Below, piece by piece: positions 5,764 to 15,666 of a DNA stretch of 64,000 nt. Under the pieces are notes generated by a model. It ran no database searches. It worked only from the letters and a program-made list of their open reading frames with translations, and was not told the origin of the DNA. The first letter of the stretch is position 1. The number at the start of each line of letters is the position of its first letter. This DNA is from Cyclonatronum proteinivorum (GTDB lineage Bacteria > Bacteroidota > Rhodothermia > Balneolales > Cyclonatronaceae). The stretch lies in NCBI RefSeq assembly GCF_003353065.1, contig NZ_CP027806.1, positions 4,174,501 to 4,238,500 of the forward strand, given 5' to 3'. Both the position numbers and the translations under genes were made by a program.

Positions 5764-6267
5764 TCAGCTCTTGCTGACTTTCCTCGCAAGGTTTCCGGCC
5801 CGGCGCAGCAACTGACTAAACCGCAACCTAAGCTGCGCAAAAAAATGAGGTACAGGATAAAGCCGCACCATCCGTTTACCGTATCGTATGGCCTCCGGTG
5901 TACGGAGCGGCTTTTCCTCCCCGTCCCGCACACGCGCAACAACCCTGCCTGCTACGATATCAGGTGTGAGCATTTCATCCTTCGACAGACCGGAATCGCC
6001 AATAGAAAGACCTCTGATGTGTTCCCCGCTCCCGGTCACTTGATGCAGCCGGTGTGCAATCAGGTTCTGATTGCGCCGGAAAACAACAATATCACCCGGC
6101 TCAAGCGTCTCAAGGGTAGCCGGCTCCACTTCGAGCTGATCACCGTTTAGCAAATAAGGATACATGCTTTGCCCCCCGGCCTTGATCCGTACATGATACC
6201 CCCGCTTAAGCAGCTTTTCAGAAACAGCTACAAGATCTCCGACGGTTCTACTGACGGTGGGCTTCAT
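5764..6267 (-). CDS. S24/S26 (signal-peptidase-like) peptidase
   Basis: About 167 residues from the ATG at 6267 (MKPTVSRTVGDLV); an in-frame ATG at 6318 would add 17 residues. GGQSMYPYLLNGDQLEVEP carries the SM(x)P catalytic-serine box, PGDIVVFRRNQNLIAHRL is box C/D with histidine where many bacterial enzymes have lysine, and IGDSG follows, as in the S26B (SipW-like) branch. No strong N-terminal membrane helix is seen, unlike normal signal peptidases. It overlaps the end of the kinase-like gene, so they are one operon; similar compact peptidases occur beside RiPP or PqqD-type genes. Substrate unknown. Confidence 0.7.
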   Translation of the reverse strand: MKPTVSRTVGDLVAVSEKLLKRGYHVRIKAGGQSMYPYLLNGDQLEVEPATLETLEPGDIVVFRRNQNLIAHRLHQVTGSGEHIRGLSIGDSGLSKDEMLTPDIVAGRVVARVRDGEEKPLRTPEAIRYGKRMVRLYPVPHFFAQLRLRFSQLLRRAGNLARKVSKS

Positions 6268-7138
6268 GCTCGCGAATAAAGTCAATAACACCCGGTTCAG
6301 GCAGATTACCGAACTCATACACCGGGGTTTCGGAAAGCATATCGGTCACCGTCCGCAGGTGATGCTGCAGAAAATCGCGGTCAAAACCCTGCAGAATGCA
6401 GTTGCTTAGTACACGCGTTACGGCTTCTGCACTACGTAATTTTCTCAGACTATATTCCGGCGCCTGACGCAGCAGGTACACGGCATGCAGCGGCACCGAA
6501 GCAGGCACCTGCGGATACACCATGGGCGTGTTGTGGACAATCCACCGGCCTTCCTCATTTTTACGGATCAGCAGCCGGTCGTCATTAATCAGCTTGTACC
6601 CTGCCTGATACCAGGTATTGGAAATCGTGGACTTACCCACACCAGATACCCCGGTAAACACCCGGCCTTTGTCGCCGTCACAAACGGCTGAAGCATGTAC
6701 AAACAACATCGGATGGCTTAAGGTCTGATAGTACAAAATCAAAGAAAGCAGCGGAAACGATACCGGAGCCACAGAGCGCTGCTCATCTTCAGGTGGAAAA
6801 TTCAGCGGGTAGCACGCAAAGCGTGTGAAATGTTTATCCGTTACGGTTACAAACTGCTGATCGTCTGGACTAAAATGCTGATAGGTACGAATAACAAAAC
6901 CCTCTTCATGCTTTGCAACCGACCACAGCGACTGACCGTCGAGATTTCCATCGCAGATGGACGGAAGATCATTCAGAAAGGAAAGATCACCGGGTAAAGA
7001 TTCATGCACATGAATATGGACATCATGCCTTTGCTCCGGTTCAATCAGATAAGGCTGCAGGCAGTTTCCAGGCTCCCGCTGCATGCGGCCTTCCGCTGTA
7101 AGTTTATAAACCACATCCGCTACTCTAAAAAAATGCAT
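6248..7138 (-). CDS. HPr kinase/phosphorylase-like (HprK-related) protein
   Basis: 296 residues from the ATG at 7138; a TTG two codons upstream is the alternative start. A P-loop is visible (FTGVSGVGKSTISN), preceded by LFVHASAVC and followed by LINDDRLLIRK, the C-terminal HprK/P nucleotide-binding layout; the N-terminal half is unrelated to classical HprK. HprK-like kinases of this type are found next to PqqD-like genes in RiPP clusters, including lasso-peptide clusters where they phosphorylate the peptide. Here the partner PqqD gene is divergent, 227 bases away. No cyclase or transglutaminase-type gene accompanies it. Confidence 0.75.
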   Translation of the reverse strand: MHFFRVADVVYKLTAEGRMQREPGNCLQPYLIEPEQRHDVHIHVHESLPGDLSFLNDLPSICDGNLDGQSLWSVAKHEEGFVIRTYQHFSPDDQQFVTVTDKHFTRFACYPLNFPPEDEQRSVAPVSFPLLSLILYYQTLSHPMLFVHASAVCDGDKGRVFTGVSGVGKSTISNTWYQAGYKLINDDRLLIRKNEEGRWIVHNTPMVYPQVPASVPLHAVYLLRQAPEYSLRKLRSAEAVTRVLSNCILQGFDRDFLQHHLRTVTDMLSETPVYEFGNLPEPGVIDFIREHEAHRQ

Positions 7139-7242
7139 ACCCAAAAATTGATCCCGTCTTTTTGTTTTTGTTTCTTTAGTTTTAGTACCTATTGTGTTTG
7201 CGCTGCCAATATAACACCTTCCTAAACTGAAAGCCTGCTTAA

Positions 7243-7368
7243 ATGCCCGATCTCGCTATGCTATGCCATTATTTTTTAAGACGAGGTAAAACAGATTTGT
7301 TTATATTGCGAAATTACTTAATTAGTTCAGCCTTACCTGCAACAAAACCTCCAATTTTTGAAGTATGA
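7243..7368 (+). CDS. 41-residue ORF overlapping the PqqD start, possible leader or precursor
   Basis: ATG at 7243 opens MPDLAMLCHYFLRRGKTDLF... and stops at the TGA of the ATGA that also starts the PqqD gene, so the two would be translationally coupled. The peptide has one Cys and a PATKPP stretch near its end. It is the only short frame in the divergent gap of the kinase/PqqD pair. That it is translated, or is a RiPP precursor, is speculation from position. Confidence 0.25.
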   Translation: MPDLAMLCHYFLRRGKTDLFILRNYLISSALPATKPPIFEV

Positions 7369-7661
7369 GCCACCCTAAAATTAGTGATATTATTAAGCAA
7401 AGGCCGAACTTTGCGTCTGAGCCCGTAAATGGTGAACGAATACTCGTGCCGGTTCGGGGGCGGATGGCCGAATTCAATACCATGCTAACCCTTAACCCTT
7501 CAGCTTCTGTACTTTGGGAAGCTATCAATGAACAGACAACTATTGAATCGCTTGTTGAAGCACTTACCAATAAGTATGAGGTAGATCGCGAAACAGCCCG
7601 TGCCGATGTAAATGAGTTTATTGATGAACTTCATACCTTTATGACAAGCGTTCCAAATTAA
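7365..7661 (+). CDS. PqqD family peptide chaperone (RRE-like)
   Basis: 98 residues, the normal length for a PqqD. ILVPVRGRMAEFNTMLTLNPSASVLWEAINEQTTIESLVEALTNKYEVDRETARADVNEFIDEL shows the winged-helix fold with the conserved LNPSAxxLWE and the acidic Dv.eFi.eL end. PqqD proteins bind leader peptides and present them to modifying enzymes. Neighbours are an HprK-like kinase and S26-type peptidase on the opposite strand and a secreted protease 27 bases downstream. No PqqE-type radical SAM enzyme is in the window. Confidence 0.85.
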   Translation: MSHPKISDIIKQRPNFASEPVNGERILVPVRGRMAEFNTMLTLNPSASVLWEAINEQTTIESLVEALTNKYEVDRETARADVNEFIDELHTFMTSVPN

Positions 7662-7688: not shown

Positions 7689-10202
7689 ATGTTCGCACAC
7701 CATTCTAAATTTTTCGGACGTATTTTCAGAGGCCAATCCCTATGGATTGGCCTTGTTTTTTGGGGATGCTGTACTTTCATTTTATCCACGGCAGGTTCTG
7801 TAGCATGGGGACAGGGACTACATGCTACTTCCCATCAAGCTTCCGGTTTTTGGCAAACCATCATCGCCCAAGCAGGACTTAAGGACGACGCACATCCGGC
7901 GAATAAACCTTTGGAATACAGGCCCCGTTGCTTTACGGCAACCCTCACTGCTGCCCACAGAGGAGAACATCCGCACGTAAAGCAGATTCCGAATCCGCTC
8001 CGTGAACAGCTCAACTTTGCCGGCGAAAACAGCTATCAGTCGCCCGGCGGCGGATTTATAATCTGGTACGATCTCAGCGGCGAACATGCCGTGCCGCCTC
8101 AGGATGAATCCGGAACCGGCATACCCGACTGGATTGAGCACATCGCCCTCGCTGCCGATTCCGCACAAACCTACTTCAGCAGCCTTGGCTTCCACGACCC
8201 GGTAAGCGCACAGCCCTACAACATCTACCTGCGCAACCTCGGCTTTTACGGCTTTACGAGCATTCAGGAAAGCGAGCCCTTCAGCGTAATCGACACAACT
8301 TTCGACTGGATTTCCGGCAACGATGCCGACGATCCGCAGGCCGGGGCTGCCCGCGTAACCGTTGCGCACGAGCTCTATCACGCCATTCAGTTCCGCTACA
8401 ACAACTGGAGCGGTCCGACCGGCGCTACAGCCTGGCTCGAAATGGACGCCCTCAGCGCCGAGCATCAGGTCTTTCCGGAAGTCCGCGAATACCTGCACTT
8501 TATCGGAGATGACTCCATCTTCCGGCTTCCAGGTCAGGGCACGCCCGTCGCTTACGCCCATGCCACCTGGATACTGTACTTTCTGGAAGCCGTTTCCCCC
8601 GACTTCATGCGCCACGTCTGGGAACGCATTGCGCTGCAACCCGACAGCACAATGGAAGCCGCGATCGCCGCAGAACTTGAAAGCCGCGGCCTCGACTACA
8701 CGACTGAAATCACCCGCCTGCATTTGTGGCATCTCGCCTCGGGGAGCTGGAGTCAGCCCGGCTTCGGCTTCGCGGATGCGGCCCGCTACCCCACTTCCTT
8801 CAAACGCAGTCAGCGCAGCACCCTGCCCGATGCCCCCTACCCGCTCTGGAACATCGCCCCAAACGCGGCAAGCTACTACGCGCTTGTACCCCAGCATTCC
8901 CCCGAGGGGACCGCGCTCGCAGCCTTCTTCGCTGACCGCCCCCAAAGCGGGTGGGGACTCATAGCCTACTTTGGTGACGGCGGGGTCGAAACCTACCTGC
9001 CCGAACGTGCGCATGGTTTGCAGCCGGTACTTGCCAACCCCGGCTGGGATTGGGGTGCCATCGAGCGGCTCGGGATGGTTGTCATCAACAGCGATCCGGC
9101 ACAAACAGCCATACATCAGCTGTTATTGGGCAGTGAAGACAGCATAGAGCAGATCCGCTACGGCGATGTAACCGGCACAGGCTTCATTTCCGAATCCGAT
9201 GCCCTCCGCGTACTCGAGGAAGTGAGCGGAGCCTCCGAAACTCGTCTCGGCTTTGCGCAGGCCTACGCCGCAGAAGTAAACGGCAGCGGCATCCTCTCCG
9301 CCTTCGACGCCGGACGCATCTACCGGCGCTCCTCCGGCTTCAGCATGCCCTTCCCCGCCGACCTCAACGAAACCGGCTTCGGTCCTGACCTGCCCCGCTT
9401 TTTCCCTGGCAAAGATCCTGCCGGGGCTTCGTTAACGCAGCATTCAGGGGGGGCTTTTTTATCGATGGATGGCATCACGCCCTCATCCGGCAGCGTAGAT
9501 GATATTACCATCAGCCTGACCGGCGAACCACTCTACCGCGGACAGGAAGCCCAGGTTGATATTGTGGTAAGCGGACTTCCGGAACCGGCCCTGTCGGCCG
9601 AGCTTACCTTCTTTTACCCCGCCAACCTGCTGCAATTCACCGGCATCATTGCCGGGAACTCCGGTTTCGGGGAGCTGCTGCAGGCATGGCATCAGCCCGA
9701 GCCCGGCATGGTACAGCTGGCCTGGGCATCGAATCAGTTCACCGGTGACGGCCTCATCGGCAGCCTCGTTTTTCAGATTGAAGAAGCGGGCATTGCCGAA
9801 ATATTTCCGGCACAGGCCATCATAAATGAAATCGAAGGTACATACGAGCTGCTGCCCTTCAGCTTCGAAGCCGACCCCAACGATCCGGTCAGCCTCCCGC
9901 CGGCAACCACCGAACAGCCGGCTTCCTTCGCCCTGCTTCCACCCTGGCCCAACCCCTTCAACCCCGGCACCAACATCCGCTTTGACCTTCCGGAAACCAC
10001 GGAAGTAAGCCTACGCGTGTACGACAGCCTCGGCCGCCAAACCGCAACCCTCCTCCAAAACAGCCCGATGTCCCCCGGCACACACACCCTCAGCTGGGAC
10101 GCCGGGCAGTTCGCTTCCGGTATATATATCGTAGTCCTGACCTACCAAACCCCCGCCGGACAAACCGGCCGCCTAAGCCGCACGATAACGCTGCTGAAAT
10201 AG
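7689..10202 (+). CDS. Secreted putative metalloprotease (MXAN_6640-like) with T9SS sorting domain
   Basis: 837 residues. A signal peptide follows the basic start (LWIGLVFWGCCTFILSTAGSVAWG). At about residue 227, VAHELYHAIQF is an HExxH zinc motif in a region like the MXAN_6640 family of putative metalloproteases. Residues ~490-545 (RYGDVTGTGFISESDALRVL... AAEVNGSGILSAFDAGRI) look like two dockerin-type calcium loops, followed by a cohesin-like beta region (~600-680). The end (PWPNPFNPGTNIRFDL... LRVYDSLGRQ... GIYIVVL) is a classic type A T9SS C-terminal domain, so the protein is exported by the type IX system. It lies 27 bases after PqqD, which may be chance or may couple it to the RiPP-like genes. 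Confidence 0.8.
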   Translation: MFAHHSKFFGRIFRGQSLWIGLVFWGCCTFILSTAGSVAWGQGLHATSHQASGFWQTIIAQAGLKDDAHPANKPLEYRPRCFTATLTAAHRGEHPHVKQIPNPLREQLNFAGENSYQSPGGGFIIWYDLSGEHAVPPQDESGTGIPDWIEHIALAADSAQTYFSSLGFHDPVSAQPYNIYLRNLGFYGFTSIQESEPFSVIDTTFDWISGNDADDPQAGAARVTVAHELYHAIQFRYNNWSGPTGATAWLEMDALSAEHQVFPEVREYLHFIGDDSIFRLPGQGTPVAYAHATWILYFLEAVSPDFMRHVWERIALQPDSTMEAAIAAELESRGLDYTTEITRLHLWHLASGSWSQPGFGFADAARYPTSFKRSQRSTLPDAPYPLWNIAPNAASYYALVPQHSPEGTALAAFFADRPQSGWGLIAYFGDGGVETYLPERAHGLQPVLANPGWDWGAIERLGMVVINSDPAQTAIHQLLLGSEDSIEQIRYGDVTGTGFISESDALRVLEEVSGASETRLGFAQAYAAEVNGSGILSAFDAGRIYRRSSGFSMPFPADLNETGFGPDLPRFFPGKDPAGASLTQHSGGAFLSMDGITPSSGSVDDITISLTGEPLYRGQEAQVDIVVSGLPEPALSAELTFFYPANLLQFTGIIAGNSGFGELLQAWHQPEPGMVQLAWASNQFTGDGLIGSLVFQIEEAGIAEIFPAQAIINEIEGTYELLPFSFEADPNDPVSLPPATTEQPASFALLPPWPNPFNPGTNIRFDLPETTEVSLRVYDSLGRQTATLLQNSPMSPGTHTLSWDAGQFASGIYIVVLTYQTPAGQTGRLSRTITLLK

Positions 10203-12000: not shown

Positions 12001-12091
12001 GTCGTCGGTTCGTCCGCGTTTTTTGCCCATGTCTGCCTGCTATCCTGTATCTTGTTTTGCTTTCTTTCCATCACACGGAACCAACAAAACA

Positions 12092-12124
12092 CGCATCACG
12101 CATCACGCATCACGAAACACGAAA
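12092..12124 (+). repeat. Short tandem repeat ACGCATC
   Basis: Three tandem copies of the heptamer ACGCATC followed by two degenerate copies (ACGAAAC, ACGAAAA), just before the ATG of the PLD-helicase gene. Low-complexity; it argues that the coding start is downstream at 12148. Confidence 0.6.
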
Positions 12125-12147
12125 ACTCCGAAACCAAAACGATATCA

Positions 12148-15100
12148 ATGTCCGGGCCTGATCTTTTTTCTTCTGCGAACCTGCCGGAGCAGGAACATTA
12201 TCCCATGAATCAGCAGGGGATGGATACCCTGCGGTTTATTCGGGCAGATATTAAAGAATCGGCTGAATATGTGATTATTACCGGATATTCATCTCTGGAC
12301 TTCATCGTGCAGCTGCTGGGCGGGAAGCTGGATGCGCGGGACGGAATCAAAATTGTGCTGGGGAATGAACCGGTGTTGCAACAGATCCGCAGCCGGGAGG
12401 CGCAGTACGGGCAGCACGGCATCAGCTTGCCTGAGCAGATCCGGCAGTACTGGCTCTCACAGGGGATTTCCGTTCTGCTCAACGGACCCGTGCTCCGCCT
12501 GATCGAGAAAATACGCTTCGGAAAAGTTCACTTTTTCATCCATCCCAACCTGCACGCCAAGATTTACAAGGGCGATCAGCATGTGATGGTCGGATCGAGC
12601 AATTTTTCGGCTACAGGCCTTCGGACACAGGGCGAGGCCAATGTACGGCGGAGCTGGGGTGCGGACGGCTTCGCCGAAATCGGGCAGATGGCCGACTACT
12701 ACCTCAACCGCGCAGAACCCTGGAACGACGAACTCATCGCCCTGCTCGAGCAGCTGCTCCGTAACGTGAGCTGGCAGGAAGCTCTCGCCCGGGCCGTCGC
12801 CCTGATCACCGAAGGCAGCTGGATCAGCGATTTCCCCGAGCGCTGGCAGCAGCAGCAACAAACGCAGCTCTGGCCCACACAGCGGCAGGCCATCGCACAG
12901 GCGCTGTACCTGCTCGAACGACAGGGCAGCGTGCTGGTCGCCGACCCCACCGGTTCCGGCAAAACCCGCATGGGCGCGCACCTGCTCGAAGCCCTGCTCA
13001 ACCGCCTCTGGTTCCGGAGCCGGCAGCGGGGCCTGCAATATCAGATCATCTGCCCGCCCCTGGTCACCGATACCTGGGTGCGCGAGCTGAGCACCCTCGA
13101 AAGCACCATAGCGGAGCCGGTTTCACACGGCATGCTCAGCAGCAACGATCCCGTGAACCGCGAAACAACCCTCGGCAAAATCAGGCGCGCCAACATTCTG
13201 GTGGTGGATGAAGCACACAACTACCTCAACAAAACCTCGACCCGCAGTCAGAATATCGTGCTGAACCGTGCCGATCACATGATGCTCTTCACCGCTACGC
13301 CCCTGAACCGCCGCGCCGACGACCTGCTGCGCCTGGTCGAAATTCTCGGGCTCGACAACCTCAGCGAGGAAGCCTGGCAAACCTACAGTGCGCTGCAAAA
13401 AAGCCGCGATCAGCGCTCGCAGCAGGCCCTCGACCGCCTGCGCACCTACGTGCATCAGTTCATGGTCCGCCGCACCAAACGCGAGCTGAACGAAGCCATC
13501 AGCCGCAACCCCGACGCCTACCGGGATGCCCATGGTGCCCTCTGCCGCTATCCCAAAAGCATTTCCAAAACGTACAAAACCGGCGAAACCGCAGACGACA
13601 TCCGCCTTGCCGGTGAAATCGAGGTCCTTATGGCGAGCCTCAAAGGCATCCCCTTTCTCACCAACCTGAGCGCGGAACCCTTCGACCTCGAAAGCACCGA
13701 ACGACAGGAACAGTTCCTGCAAAAACGGCTGCGTGCGGCACCGGCCCTCATGCAGTGGAACTTGCGCAACATGCTGCGCTCAAGCCGGGCGGCCCTCATC
13801 GAACACCTGCTCGGCACCAAAGCCGCCATGCGCAAATTCGGCCTGAAGGACTTTAAAAATCAAAATACCGGCAATATCCTGAAAAAAGTACGGAGTTTGC
13901 GTCAGACGCCACCGCAGCACAACCTCCGCATTGCCATACCGGACTGGATTCAGCAGCCCGACCTCTGGGCGAAAACCTGCCGGGAGGAAGCCGAAATACT
14001 CGAGCGCATAGCCGACATAGCCCTCCAAATCAGCGACAGCCGCGAAAGCCGCAAGGCACAGCAGCTCGCAGAACTGATTGACCGGCACGGCATGATGCTC
14101 GCTTTCGACTCCGCCCTCATCACCCTGCAGCTCATCAAACAGAAACTCAACGCGCTCGGCTACGCCCGCAAAAGCATGATTGTGACCGGCAGCACGGGCA
14201 AGACCAAGAAAATCCTCAAACGAAACTTCGCGCTCGATGCCAAAGACATCCAAATGGCCGCCCTGTGCAGCGATGCCCTTTCCGAAGGCGTGAACCTGCA
14301 GCGCGCCTCGGCCGTCCTCTTCCTCGACATGCCCTCCGTCATCCGCATTGCCGAACAGCGCATCGGTCGCGTGGACCGCATGGACAGCCCGCACCGCGAG
14401 GTCACCGTGTACTGGCCCGACGACGCCCCCGTGTTCCGGCTGCGCACCGACCGCAGCTTCTTCTTCCGCCATCAGCTCGTGCATGAGCTCATCGGCAGCA
14501 ACATTACCCCACCGGAAAAGCTGTTAGACGAATACAGCCGCGACAGCGAAGAGACCCTCGATGCCGAAACCCTCATCCACAGCTTTGAGGAAAATCAGCG
14601 CACAGAACAATCTTGGGAAGGCTTCGAAGACGCCTTTACCCTCATCCGGCGGCTCGTTAGCGGGGAGCGGCCGCTCATCGGGGCCGACATTTTCGAACAG
14701 GCCCGGAAAGCCCCGCTCAGCGACGGTCCGTGGATCAGCATCGTCGAAACCACGCGCCCCTTCCTTTTCATGGCCGTGCGCGGGAGTCAGCAAACCGCCC
14801 CCTACTGGCTGCTGCGCCGCAAGTCCGAGAAGTCCGCCGCGGATTCCGAATCCGGAACCACACGCTCAGCCGATCCGGGCGGCTGGCTGGAGACCGAACA
14901 GGACCTGAATCAGATTGCGCCCTTCCTCCGCAAGGTGCTGCCCGAAAGCAGCCCGGCTGACTACGACCAAGCCGCGGAGCGCCTGCTGGCCGAAAACATC
15001 GCCTGGCTCGACACGCACGAACGCGAAACCCTGCCCAACAAAAAGCGCAACGCCCTCACACAGCTCGAAACCCTCGTCAAAAAATGGGACCGCATGCTCT

Positions 15101-15666
15101 CCAAAGGCCGGATCTCCGCTCAAGCCCGGCCCATGCCGACCGACACCGCCGCTTCAATACCTGATCCGAACCCCACTCCGGATCAGCCGACCAAGGCCGA
15201 TACGCCACATACCGCCTCCCCCAAAAAGAAGCAAAAACAGACCATTATCGTTGATGAAGACTTCAGCCGACAGGTCAGAAAACTCCGGCGCCTGTTCGAC
15301 CACAAGCCCGCCGCACAGGCCGCTTCCCTGCTGAAAGCCGCCTCCGGCACAGCGCCCGACACCGGTTTCAGCACGGATACGGCCCAAACCGAGCAACCCG
15401 ACTGGTACGAACTCGCCAACCGCTGGCTCGACCTCGCGCAGCCGCGCCTCATCGAATGGCTCGAAAACGAGCGCCGCCGCCGCAAATACCGCGAAATCCG
15501 CCTCAGCAACATCACCCCGCACCTCACCGAAAACCCGCCCACAGCCGCACAACTCCGCACCCTCACCGAACAACTCCCCCGCGTAGAACCCGCCCGAAAC
15601 CGCATCATAGCCGTCATCGCAGGCCGCCTCCCAAGGCCCCAAAAGCCGCTTATGACAGATGATTGA
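12148..15666 (+). CDS. PLD nuclease-SF2 helicase fusion, candidate defence protein
   Basis: About 1172 residues from the ATG at 12148 (MSGPDLFSSANLPEQEHYP); an in-frame ATG at 12052 adds 32 residues read through the tandem repeat and is unlikely. Residues ~20-160 form a phospholipase D/NgoFVII-type nuclease domain with one HxK motif (HAKIYKGDQHVMVGSSNFS). The helicase core follows: Walker A DPTGSGKT (~265), VVDEAHN (~352), LFTATPLN (~381), and C-terminal lobe SEGVNLQRAS...EQRIGRVDRM (~713-745), resembling SNF2/HepA-like SF2 enzymes. The last ~350 residues are charged and unrecognised. The architecture (one PLD half-site plus ATP motor) suits a dimeric nuclease-translocase. It lies between a RAYT/REP locus and a broken restriction system, so a defence role is inferred, not shown. 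Confidence 0.75.
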   Translation: MSGPDLFSSANLPEQEHYPMNQQGMDTLRFIRADIKESAEYVIITGYSSLDFIVQLLGGKLDARDGIKIVLGNEPVLQQIRSREAQYGQHGISLPEQIRQYWLSQGISVLLNGPVLRLIEKIRFGKVHFFIHPNLHAKIYKGDQHVMVGSSNFSATGLRTQGEANVRRSWGADGFAEIGQMADYYLNRAEPWNDELIALLEQLLRNVSWQEALARAVALITEGSWISDFPERWQQQQQTQLWPTQRQAIAQALYLLERQGSVLVADPTGSGKTRMGAHLLEALLNRLWFRSRQRGLQYQIICPPLVTDTWVRELSTLESTIAEPVSHGMLSSNDPVNRETTLGKIRRANILVVDEAHNYLNKTSTRSQNIVLNRADHMMLFTATPLNRRADDLLRLVEILGLDNLSEEAWQTYSALQKSRDQRSQQALDRLRTYVHQFMVRRTKRELNEAISRNPDAYRDAHGALCRYPKSISKTYKTGETADDIRLAGEIEVLMASLKGIPFLTNLSAEPFDLESTERQEQFLQKRLRAAPALMQWNLRNMLRSSRAALIEHLLGTKAAMRKFGLKDFKNQNTGNILKKVRSLRQTPPQHNLRIAIPDWIQQPDLWAKTCREEAEILERIADIALQISDSRESRKAQQLAELIDRHGMMLAFDSALITLQLIKQKLNALGYARKSMIVTGSTGKTKKILKRNFALDAKDIQMAALCSDALSEGVNLQRASAVLFLDMPSVIRIAEQRIGRVDRMDSPHREVTVYWPDDAPVFRLRTDRSFFFRHQLVHELIGSNITPPEKLLDEYSRDSEETLDAETLIHSFEENQRTEQSWEGFEDAFTLIRRLVSGERPLIGADIFEQARKAPLSDGPWISIVETTRPFLFMAVRGSQQTAPYWLLRRKSEKSAADSESGTTRSADPGGWLETEQDLNQIAPFLRKVLPESSPADYDQAAERLLAENIAWLDTHERETLPNKKRNALTQLETLVKKWDRMLSKGRISAQARPMPTDTAASIPDPNPTPDQPTKADTPHTASPKKKQKQTIIVDEDFSRQVRKLRRLFDHKPAAQAASLLKAASGTAPDTGFSTDTAQTEQPDWYELANRWLDLAQPRLIEWLENERRRRKYREIRLSNITPHLTENPPTAAQLRTLTEQLPRVEPARNRIIAVIAGRLPRPQKPLMTDD

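Follow-up and report, generated by a model that had tools for sequence, protein, structure and literature searches.

We find that three neighbouring genes, for a signal-peptidase-like peptidase, an HprK-like kinase and a PqqD-type protein, probably form the maturation core of a RiPP system resembling the Linear Polyphosphorylated Peptides (LPP), with dispersed precursors that would be supplied in trans and ride with cargo of the type IX secretion system (T9SS). This reading builds on the observed genes and their conserved residues, on a family of short precursor-like ORFs, and on the co-occurrence of that family with the cassette and its adjacency to T9SS genes. The window, i.e. the whole stretch of 64,000 nucleotides analysed here (G000:C1:4174501-4238500), belongs to a genome, G000, that is a single contig of 4.29 Mb. 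The features concerned are:

5764..6318, minus strand: SipW/archaeal-type signal-peptidase-like leader peptidase; ORF confirmed; S51, H89, D108
6248..7144, minus strand: HprK-like putative peptide kinase; ORF confirmed; H150/K171/D188-D189
7145..7364, no strand: divergent intergenic region, holding most of a non-conserved 41-residue frame
7365..7661, plus strand: PqqD-type RiPP recognition element (RRE); ORF confirmed; N44, Y71, D81, F85
7689..10202, plus strand: T9SS-sorted MXAN_6640-like putative metalloprotease, the linked cargo gene, 27 nt behind the RRE gene
G000:C1:1980824-1980961, outside the window: candidate precursor of the window genome, 45 aa, 36 nt downstream of the gene for a T9SS cargo protein of 1176 aa

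The arrangement given in the preliminary description, overlapping peptidase and kinase genes on the minus strand and a divergent PqqD gene, was confirmed at the level of the ORFs. The kinase probably begins at ATG 7138 instead, and the peptidase at ATG 6267, the latter based on alignment with the related locus L006 (see below); the overlap would then shrink to 20 nt. The peptidase matched PF00717 (28.6 bits, cut-off 23.3) and, below the cut-off of 51.85, the archaeal-type signal peptidase I model TIGR02228 (42.6 bits, E 5.6e-11); its Ser, His and Asp were kept in 10 of 10 aligned sequences. Because no transmembrane segment was predicted (highest 19-residue hydropathy 1.35), the enzyme is probably soluble and cytoplasmic. 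The kinase is a distant relative of HprK (PF07475, E 4e-4; TIGR04355, E 8e-9; both below cut-off), and its H/K/DD motif was kept in all 11 aligned kinases, placed as in the lasso peptide kinases. Residues of the Ser/His/Asp kind are reported to be needed by mutation in LppS (PMC13381572), as are those of the H/K/DD kind in lasso kinases; the mapping of the window residues onto both was made in the present analysis. We are unsure which Asp of the window peptidase equals LppS D93, since D108 lies 19 residues after its His and D93 25 after that of LppS, with D114 as the alternative. Predicted structures were weak, that of the kinase unusable (pLDDT 34.9) and that of the peptidase too weak (60.1).

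The PqqD protein matched PF05402 well above the cut-off (67 bits versus 23.4) and was the only PqqD match in the genome. Its N44, Y71, D81 and F85 align with LppB N33, Y60, D70 and F74, of which N33, D70 and F74 are described as contacting the leader, in the Tyr pocket, in PDB 9x8z (PMC13381572; we matched the numbering of the paper to that of the PDB chain). These three positions are N, D and F in 14, 14 and 13 of 14 RREs, window included, and the position of Y60 is Phe in ten of the 14. In the Trp-type RRE of paeninodin, Gly and Gln occupy the first two of the three places; as judged from these residues, the window pocket is of the Tyr type, not the paeninodin Trp type.

The LPP RiPPs (LppA/LppB/LppK/LppS/LppN/LppD) were published in May 2026 (Popov et al., PMC13381572) and are stated there to be restricted to Bacillota; the string 'bacteroid' does not occur in the main text of that paper. 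The window set resembles them in its SipW-like Ser-His-Asp leader peptidase, its discrete Tyr-type RRE, its HprK-like HKDD kinase and the lack of a recognised cyclase, and most of its relatives add a nucleotidyltransferase (NTase) of the NTP_transf_5 type. It differs from them in its phylum, Bacteroidota, in its candidate precursors, most of which are encoded in trans and downstream of T9SS cargo genes (see below), and in that neither an MsbA-like exporter nor an NTase was recognised at the window locus. An HprK-like kinase, an RRE and the NTase (PsmN) family also recur in the phospho-lasso systems of paeninodin and pseudomycoidin, the NTase of the latter being reported to transfer hexose (PMC9266682). 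In contrast to these systems, the 15 window ORFs scanned between 432 and 15666 included no recognised macrolactam synthetase/cyclase or B2 peptidase, the type of the RRE pocket differs from that of paeninodin, and the conserved Ser of the candidate precursors described below would lie early in the presumed core and not C-terminally. Likewise, the HprK-related kinase A/B and SynChlorMet (ScmC/ScmD) families of NCBIfam pair a kinase with a PqqD-type protein, but the window genes matched TIGR04355, TIGR04352, TIGR04249 and TIGR04248 weakly, all far below cut-off, and no radical SAM enzyme was seen among the window genes scanned. The earlier impression of a RiPP-like set with its cyclase missing holds. 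The modification it was thought to serve, of a different and undescribed peptide, proved half right: the peptide is probably a different one, a short YxxP precursor, but the core is that of LPP and so not wholly undescribed.

Synteny of the trio, which the preliminary description had proposed to check, was kept in one of five congeners (G005) and not in the other four (G001-G004). Identity between window and G005 is 80% for the kinase, 71% for PqqD and 61% for the peptidase. In both genomes the trio is flanked by YtoQ and the gene of a T9SS-sorted protein, to which the PqqD gene is spaced by 27 nt in the window and 30 nt in G005. In G001-G004, rhomboid and YtoQ adjoin without the trio between them and the kinase was not found; the trio is thus patchily distributed in the genus, its genes having been acquired or lost together. 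The same comparison disposed of a 41-residue ORF (7243-7368) said to be translationally coupled to PqqD: the aligned G005 DNA holds no counterpart frame and no ATGA overlap, although the genes flanking the region are well conserved. As a precursor it was rejected on this ground and for its lack of the leader motif of the candidate precursors; on this comparison it is a mere frame, not a gene.

A scan of genome contigs returned one relative, locus L006 of a Flavobacteriales MAG, in which PqqD, kinase and peptidase stand in a row with an NTP_transf_5-like gene adjoining. Profile searches covered 394 genomes from the phylum, as well as 395 from the class to which G389 belongs (Bacteroidia, inferred from L006). 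Members of the kinase subfamily, all at E ≤ 1e-50, were G000 and G005, followed by G529 (probably the same genome as L006), G583, G604, G431, G581, G504, G609, G739 and G637; the copy in G631 is broken by a contig end (E 1e-21), and a kinase search of plasmids gave no match. All four genes (peptidase, kinase, RRE and NTase), scored with models built in the present analysis, were found in 7 of 10 related Bacteroidota loci. The G609 locus has no recognisable peptidase, G637 has kinase and peptidase together with the RRE ∼30 kb away, and G631 retains PqqD and part of the kinase. Gene order and strand vary among the ten loci, so the linkage looks selected. The NTase gene is present in eight of them. 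No match to the NTase model was obtained in the window; its role seems optional here, because G000 has one unlinked copy and none was found in G005. An exporter model gave no match in the window, in the 20 kb upstream or in 29 kb of G005; it was made from two ABC genes, that of L038 (checked with Pfam) and that of L041 (assigned by position and size only).

More distant kinases with similar partners occur in exopolysaccharide and radical SAM loci. These were rejected as the home of the trio, since the kinase tree places the window with G005 and L006, apart from them (support 98/96); the peptidase and PqqD trees are unsure owing to long branches. Three loci of the window's phylum, L038, L041 and L135 (genomes G389, G060 and G728), hold all five LPP core genes, for peptidase, RRE, NTase, ABC exporter and HprK-like kinase, side by side, the set of L135 being called by our own models and the exporter of L041 from position and size only. 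At L038 the five genes adjoin Wza- and Wzc-type export genes (Pfam). No precursor was seen at these three loci, and their gene content argues against a restriction of LPP to Bacillota. At L040, SynChlorMet-like, the kinase match and a radical SAM domain fall in a single frame, which is flanked by genes for PqqD, an S24/S26 peptidase, NTP_transf_5 and more radical SAM proteins; L042, L044 and L045 have kinase frames of similar length with PqqD and peptidase. A distant kinase-peptidase-PqqD trio also stands by 2-oxoacid:ferredoxin oxidoreductase genes and a sigma-70 factor at L036 and L134 (G422, G593), the neighbourhood being read from Pfam at L036 and only from likeness of ORFs at L134.

Candidate precursors were found as 34 short ORFs in 11 genomes; their consensus is YxKPxVxKVxIDNEISxVMMS, followed by a variable tail. 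They were first detected in an all-versus-all comparison of short ORFs around the cassettes, which gave YxxPxV starts in L125, L126, L129 and L130. A motif scan then revealed such a peptide in the congener G003, 192 nt upstream of a tandem pair of PqqD genes, and a DNA pattern raised the number in this genome to four. We built a leader profile (A6; 26 positions, ten rows from G003, G604, G504, G609 and G583) and ran it on 44 chosen genomes, obtaining 31 precursors at E ≤ 1e-4 in nine genomes, together with full-length weak matches, one in G000 (E 0.0136) and two in G005 (0.54 and 0.87). With G000 and G005 counted on context, precursors are present in 10 of 12 genomes with the kinase versus 1 of 32 without. 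When the five genomes that supplied rows were excluded, the counts at E ≤ 0.02 were 5 of 8 kinase genomes (6 with G005 on context) versus none of 31 kinase-free ones, and at E ≤ 1e-4 they were 4 of 8 versus none of the 31. When the threshold is relaxed to E ≤ 1, some match appears in 13 of these 31 kinase-free genomes, over at most 16 of the 26 positions. The exceptions are G581 and G631, with a kinase and no precursor found, and G003, which has precursors, RREs and an NTase, yet no kinase found (genome 89% complete). Some precursors adjoin an RRE or peptidase gene (G003, G604, G583, G637, G504), and none of ten tested matched any Pfam or NCBIfam model.

Aligned by YxxP, 31 of the 34 precursors, i.e. 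all except two broken by contig ends and G604:C67, have D(+11) throughout and Ser (29) or Thr (2) at +20; Y and P were the alignment rule, and V/I/L is kept at +5. G604:C67 has Leu in place of the Tyr and Ser in place of D(+11), and E(+13)-I(+14) is missing from the one G000 and both G005 peptides. Compared with the LPP leader, YxxPxVLxHQxIxFETxxS, the candidates keep Y, P, V/I/L(+5) and the following Ser, after the expected cut, but not HQ or FET, with IDNEIS...MMS in place of HQxIxFETxxS. Codon variation is concentrated at position 3 in ten peptides of family f65 (431/945 versus 274/1890 at positions 1 and 2) and in four of G003 (76/126 versus 35/252), with a weaker bias in the three of G000/G005 (41/63 and 45/126). 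Most f65 tails end in NPLxWxx, and those of the genus are Pro-rich. The four precursors in tandem at L125:10319-10779 are just 25-27 residues long and stop no more than two residues past the conserved Ser/Thr (zero to two), which would leave a core of only three to five residues.

The candidate of the window genome (MEKKSYEKPEVRVTSFDNVTSAVLMSPPPGPLGNPVTLPPPPAQS) lies 2.2 Mb from the trio. With a model made from six G003 peptides alone it ranked 1 of 3574 segments examined (E 3e-4; next 0.95), and the two G005 ORFs ranked first and second of 1923; a VLMS identical to that of G003 was also noted. At the window locus itself, neither the [YW]xxPx motif nor conservation with G005 disclosed a convincing precursor. 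A DNA pattern of the LPP leader gave 0 matches in G000 with one mismatch allowed, and the genus pattern gave 4 exact matches in six genomes, all in G003. With one mismatch the latter matched 4 times each in G000 and G005 (reversed controls 2 and 1) and 10 times in the five genomes other than G003 (15 in reversed controls); none of these matches was an ORF later found in G000 or G005.

For 25 of the 32 precursors with a visible upstream region (it is not visible for two of the 34), a T9SS-tail gene or gene end immediately precedes the precursor on its strand, three of these calls (G003:C364, G609 and G604:C24) resting on our own tail model or on reading only. The remaining seven, without such a gene upstream, are G005:C31, G431:C12:98609, G637:C10 and four in G583. 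The G000 ORF and one of the two G005 ORFs share the position 3′ of a T9SS gene. Of the 23 upstream proteins scanned with PF18962, 22 were matched at E ≤ 1e-3, and 12 of these exceeded the curated cut-off. With tail models, tails were found in 21 of 22 upstream genes that lie on the precursor's strand and encode 100 aa or more, versus 12 of the 330 remaining genes at these loci (Fisher p ∼2e-24). In this comparison the models were trained partly on the tested tails, genes from the same genome count separately although they are not independent, and precursors that lack an upstream gene of this kind (most of the seven) or lie outside the given loci (G583, G504) are left out. The linked cargo bodies are unrelated (M36 protease, DUF285, GLUG, Ig-like). 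Two further tails of the subclass carried by peptide-preceding cargo genes of f65 occur in cargo genes adjoining linked ones (L189, L195). Among the papers listed by literature searches combining T9SS with RiPP or PqqD, none was seen to link them.

Given that PqqD runs into the metalloprotease gene at close spacing in both window and G005, the trio might directly modify this neighbouring T9SS protein. We consider this very unlikely: tblastn found no relative of the protease at the ten other cassette loci, its first 120 residues contain one YxxP, at residue 116, far from a leader position and followed by Gly where V/I/L is expected, and short YxxP peptides fitting the RRE exist. The early hint at T9SS was well placed in that precursors mostly lie behind T9SS cargo genes, but the protease more probably accompanies the locus as a partner than serves as its substrate. 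It is also improbable, if less so, that the trio is real while the ORFs of G000 and G005 match by chance, the substrate being an unrelated peptide or protein. The weak E-values of the first search, the failure to find a precursor at the locus and the DNA patterns that missed these ORFs speak for such chance; the first rank of the G000 ORF with a model from another species, the position of this ORF and one of the G005 pair 3′ of T9SS genes and the VLMS shared with G003 speak against it.

RRE, kinase and, in relatives, NTase are common to phospholasso clusters, and the trio could on that count be the remnant of a paeninodin-like lasso cluster that lost its cyclase and B2 peptidase. A Tyr-type pocket, an SpI-like peptidase with its key residues kept and the absence of a recognised cyclase among the neighbours scanned make this origin extremely unlikely. 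More weight, though still well short of even chances, goes to the possibility that the T9SS adjacency arose when a 3′ unit of sorting tail and peptide was duplicated, with no functional tie between the peptide and export. Linked tails are indeed alike, at 50% mutual identity versus 30% to other T9SS tails in f65 and 66% versus 45% in the genus. However, the adjacency recurs across several families whose tails differ and whose cargo bodies are unrelated, and the persistence of such a unit would itself call for an explanation.

We therefore favour an LPP-like system with trans precursors, which by analogy with LPP may work as follows. The PqqD protein would bind a short precursor by its YxxPx(V/I/L) leader and present it to the soluble Ser-His-Asp peptidase, which would cut a few residues before the conserved Ser (Y+20), perhaps after +17. 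The HprK-like kinase would phosphorylate this Ser and, where present, the NTP_transf_5 protein would probably decorate the phosphate. If the cut falls after +17, the Ser becomes core residue 3, like S3 of LppA, at which that peptide is reported to be phosphorylated (PMC13381572). Precursors would mostly be supplied in trans, scattered and mostly 3′ of T9SS cargo genes with one serving cassette per genome, their spacing suggesting co-transcription with the cargo; in the window genome the precursor would be the 45-aa ORF. As a best guess, the modified peptide would act together with the adjacent cargo, as a generic accessory or surface tag. The wider proposal that Bacteroidota run a trans system of peptide phosphorylation, probably with glycosylation, whose products are co-expressed with individual T9SS cargo and act on or with it, e.g. 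as a surface tag or anchor, is put forward tentatively, at somewhat less than even chances.

If true, this would functionally link RiPP chemistry to protein secretion. The tie between the dispersed candidate precursors and T9SS cargo genes offers a testable connection between a phosphopeptide pathway and a major secretion system. The present findings also extend a RiPP family stated to be confined to Bacillota towards Bacteroidota and supply likely precursors. The system is LPP-like and in that respect of a known kind; new is the genomic arrangement, a trans cassette with precursors behind T9SS cargo genes.

Three further observations concern the rest of the window. A gene at 1479-1980 is split over two frames, whereas G005 has it whole (166 aa); this suggests that a frameshift lies near 1685. 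Between 10208 and 12000, short stretches recur in translated frames around a weak match to an IS200-type (Y1) transposase, perhaps a REP-associated element, and 12052-15666 encodes a large SNF2-type helicase with a weak PLD-like match, possibly a defence gene.
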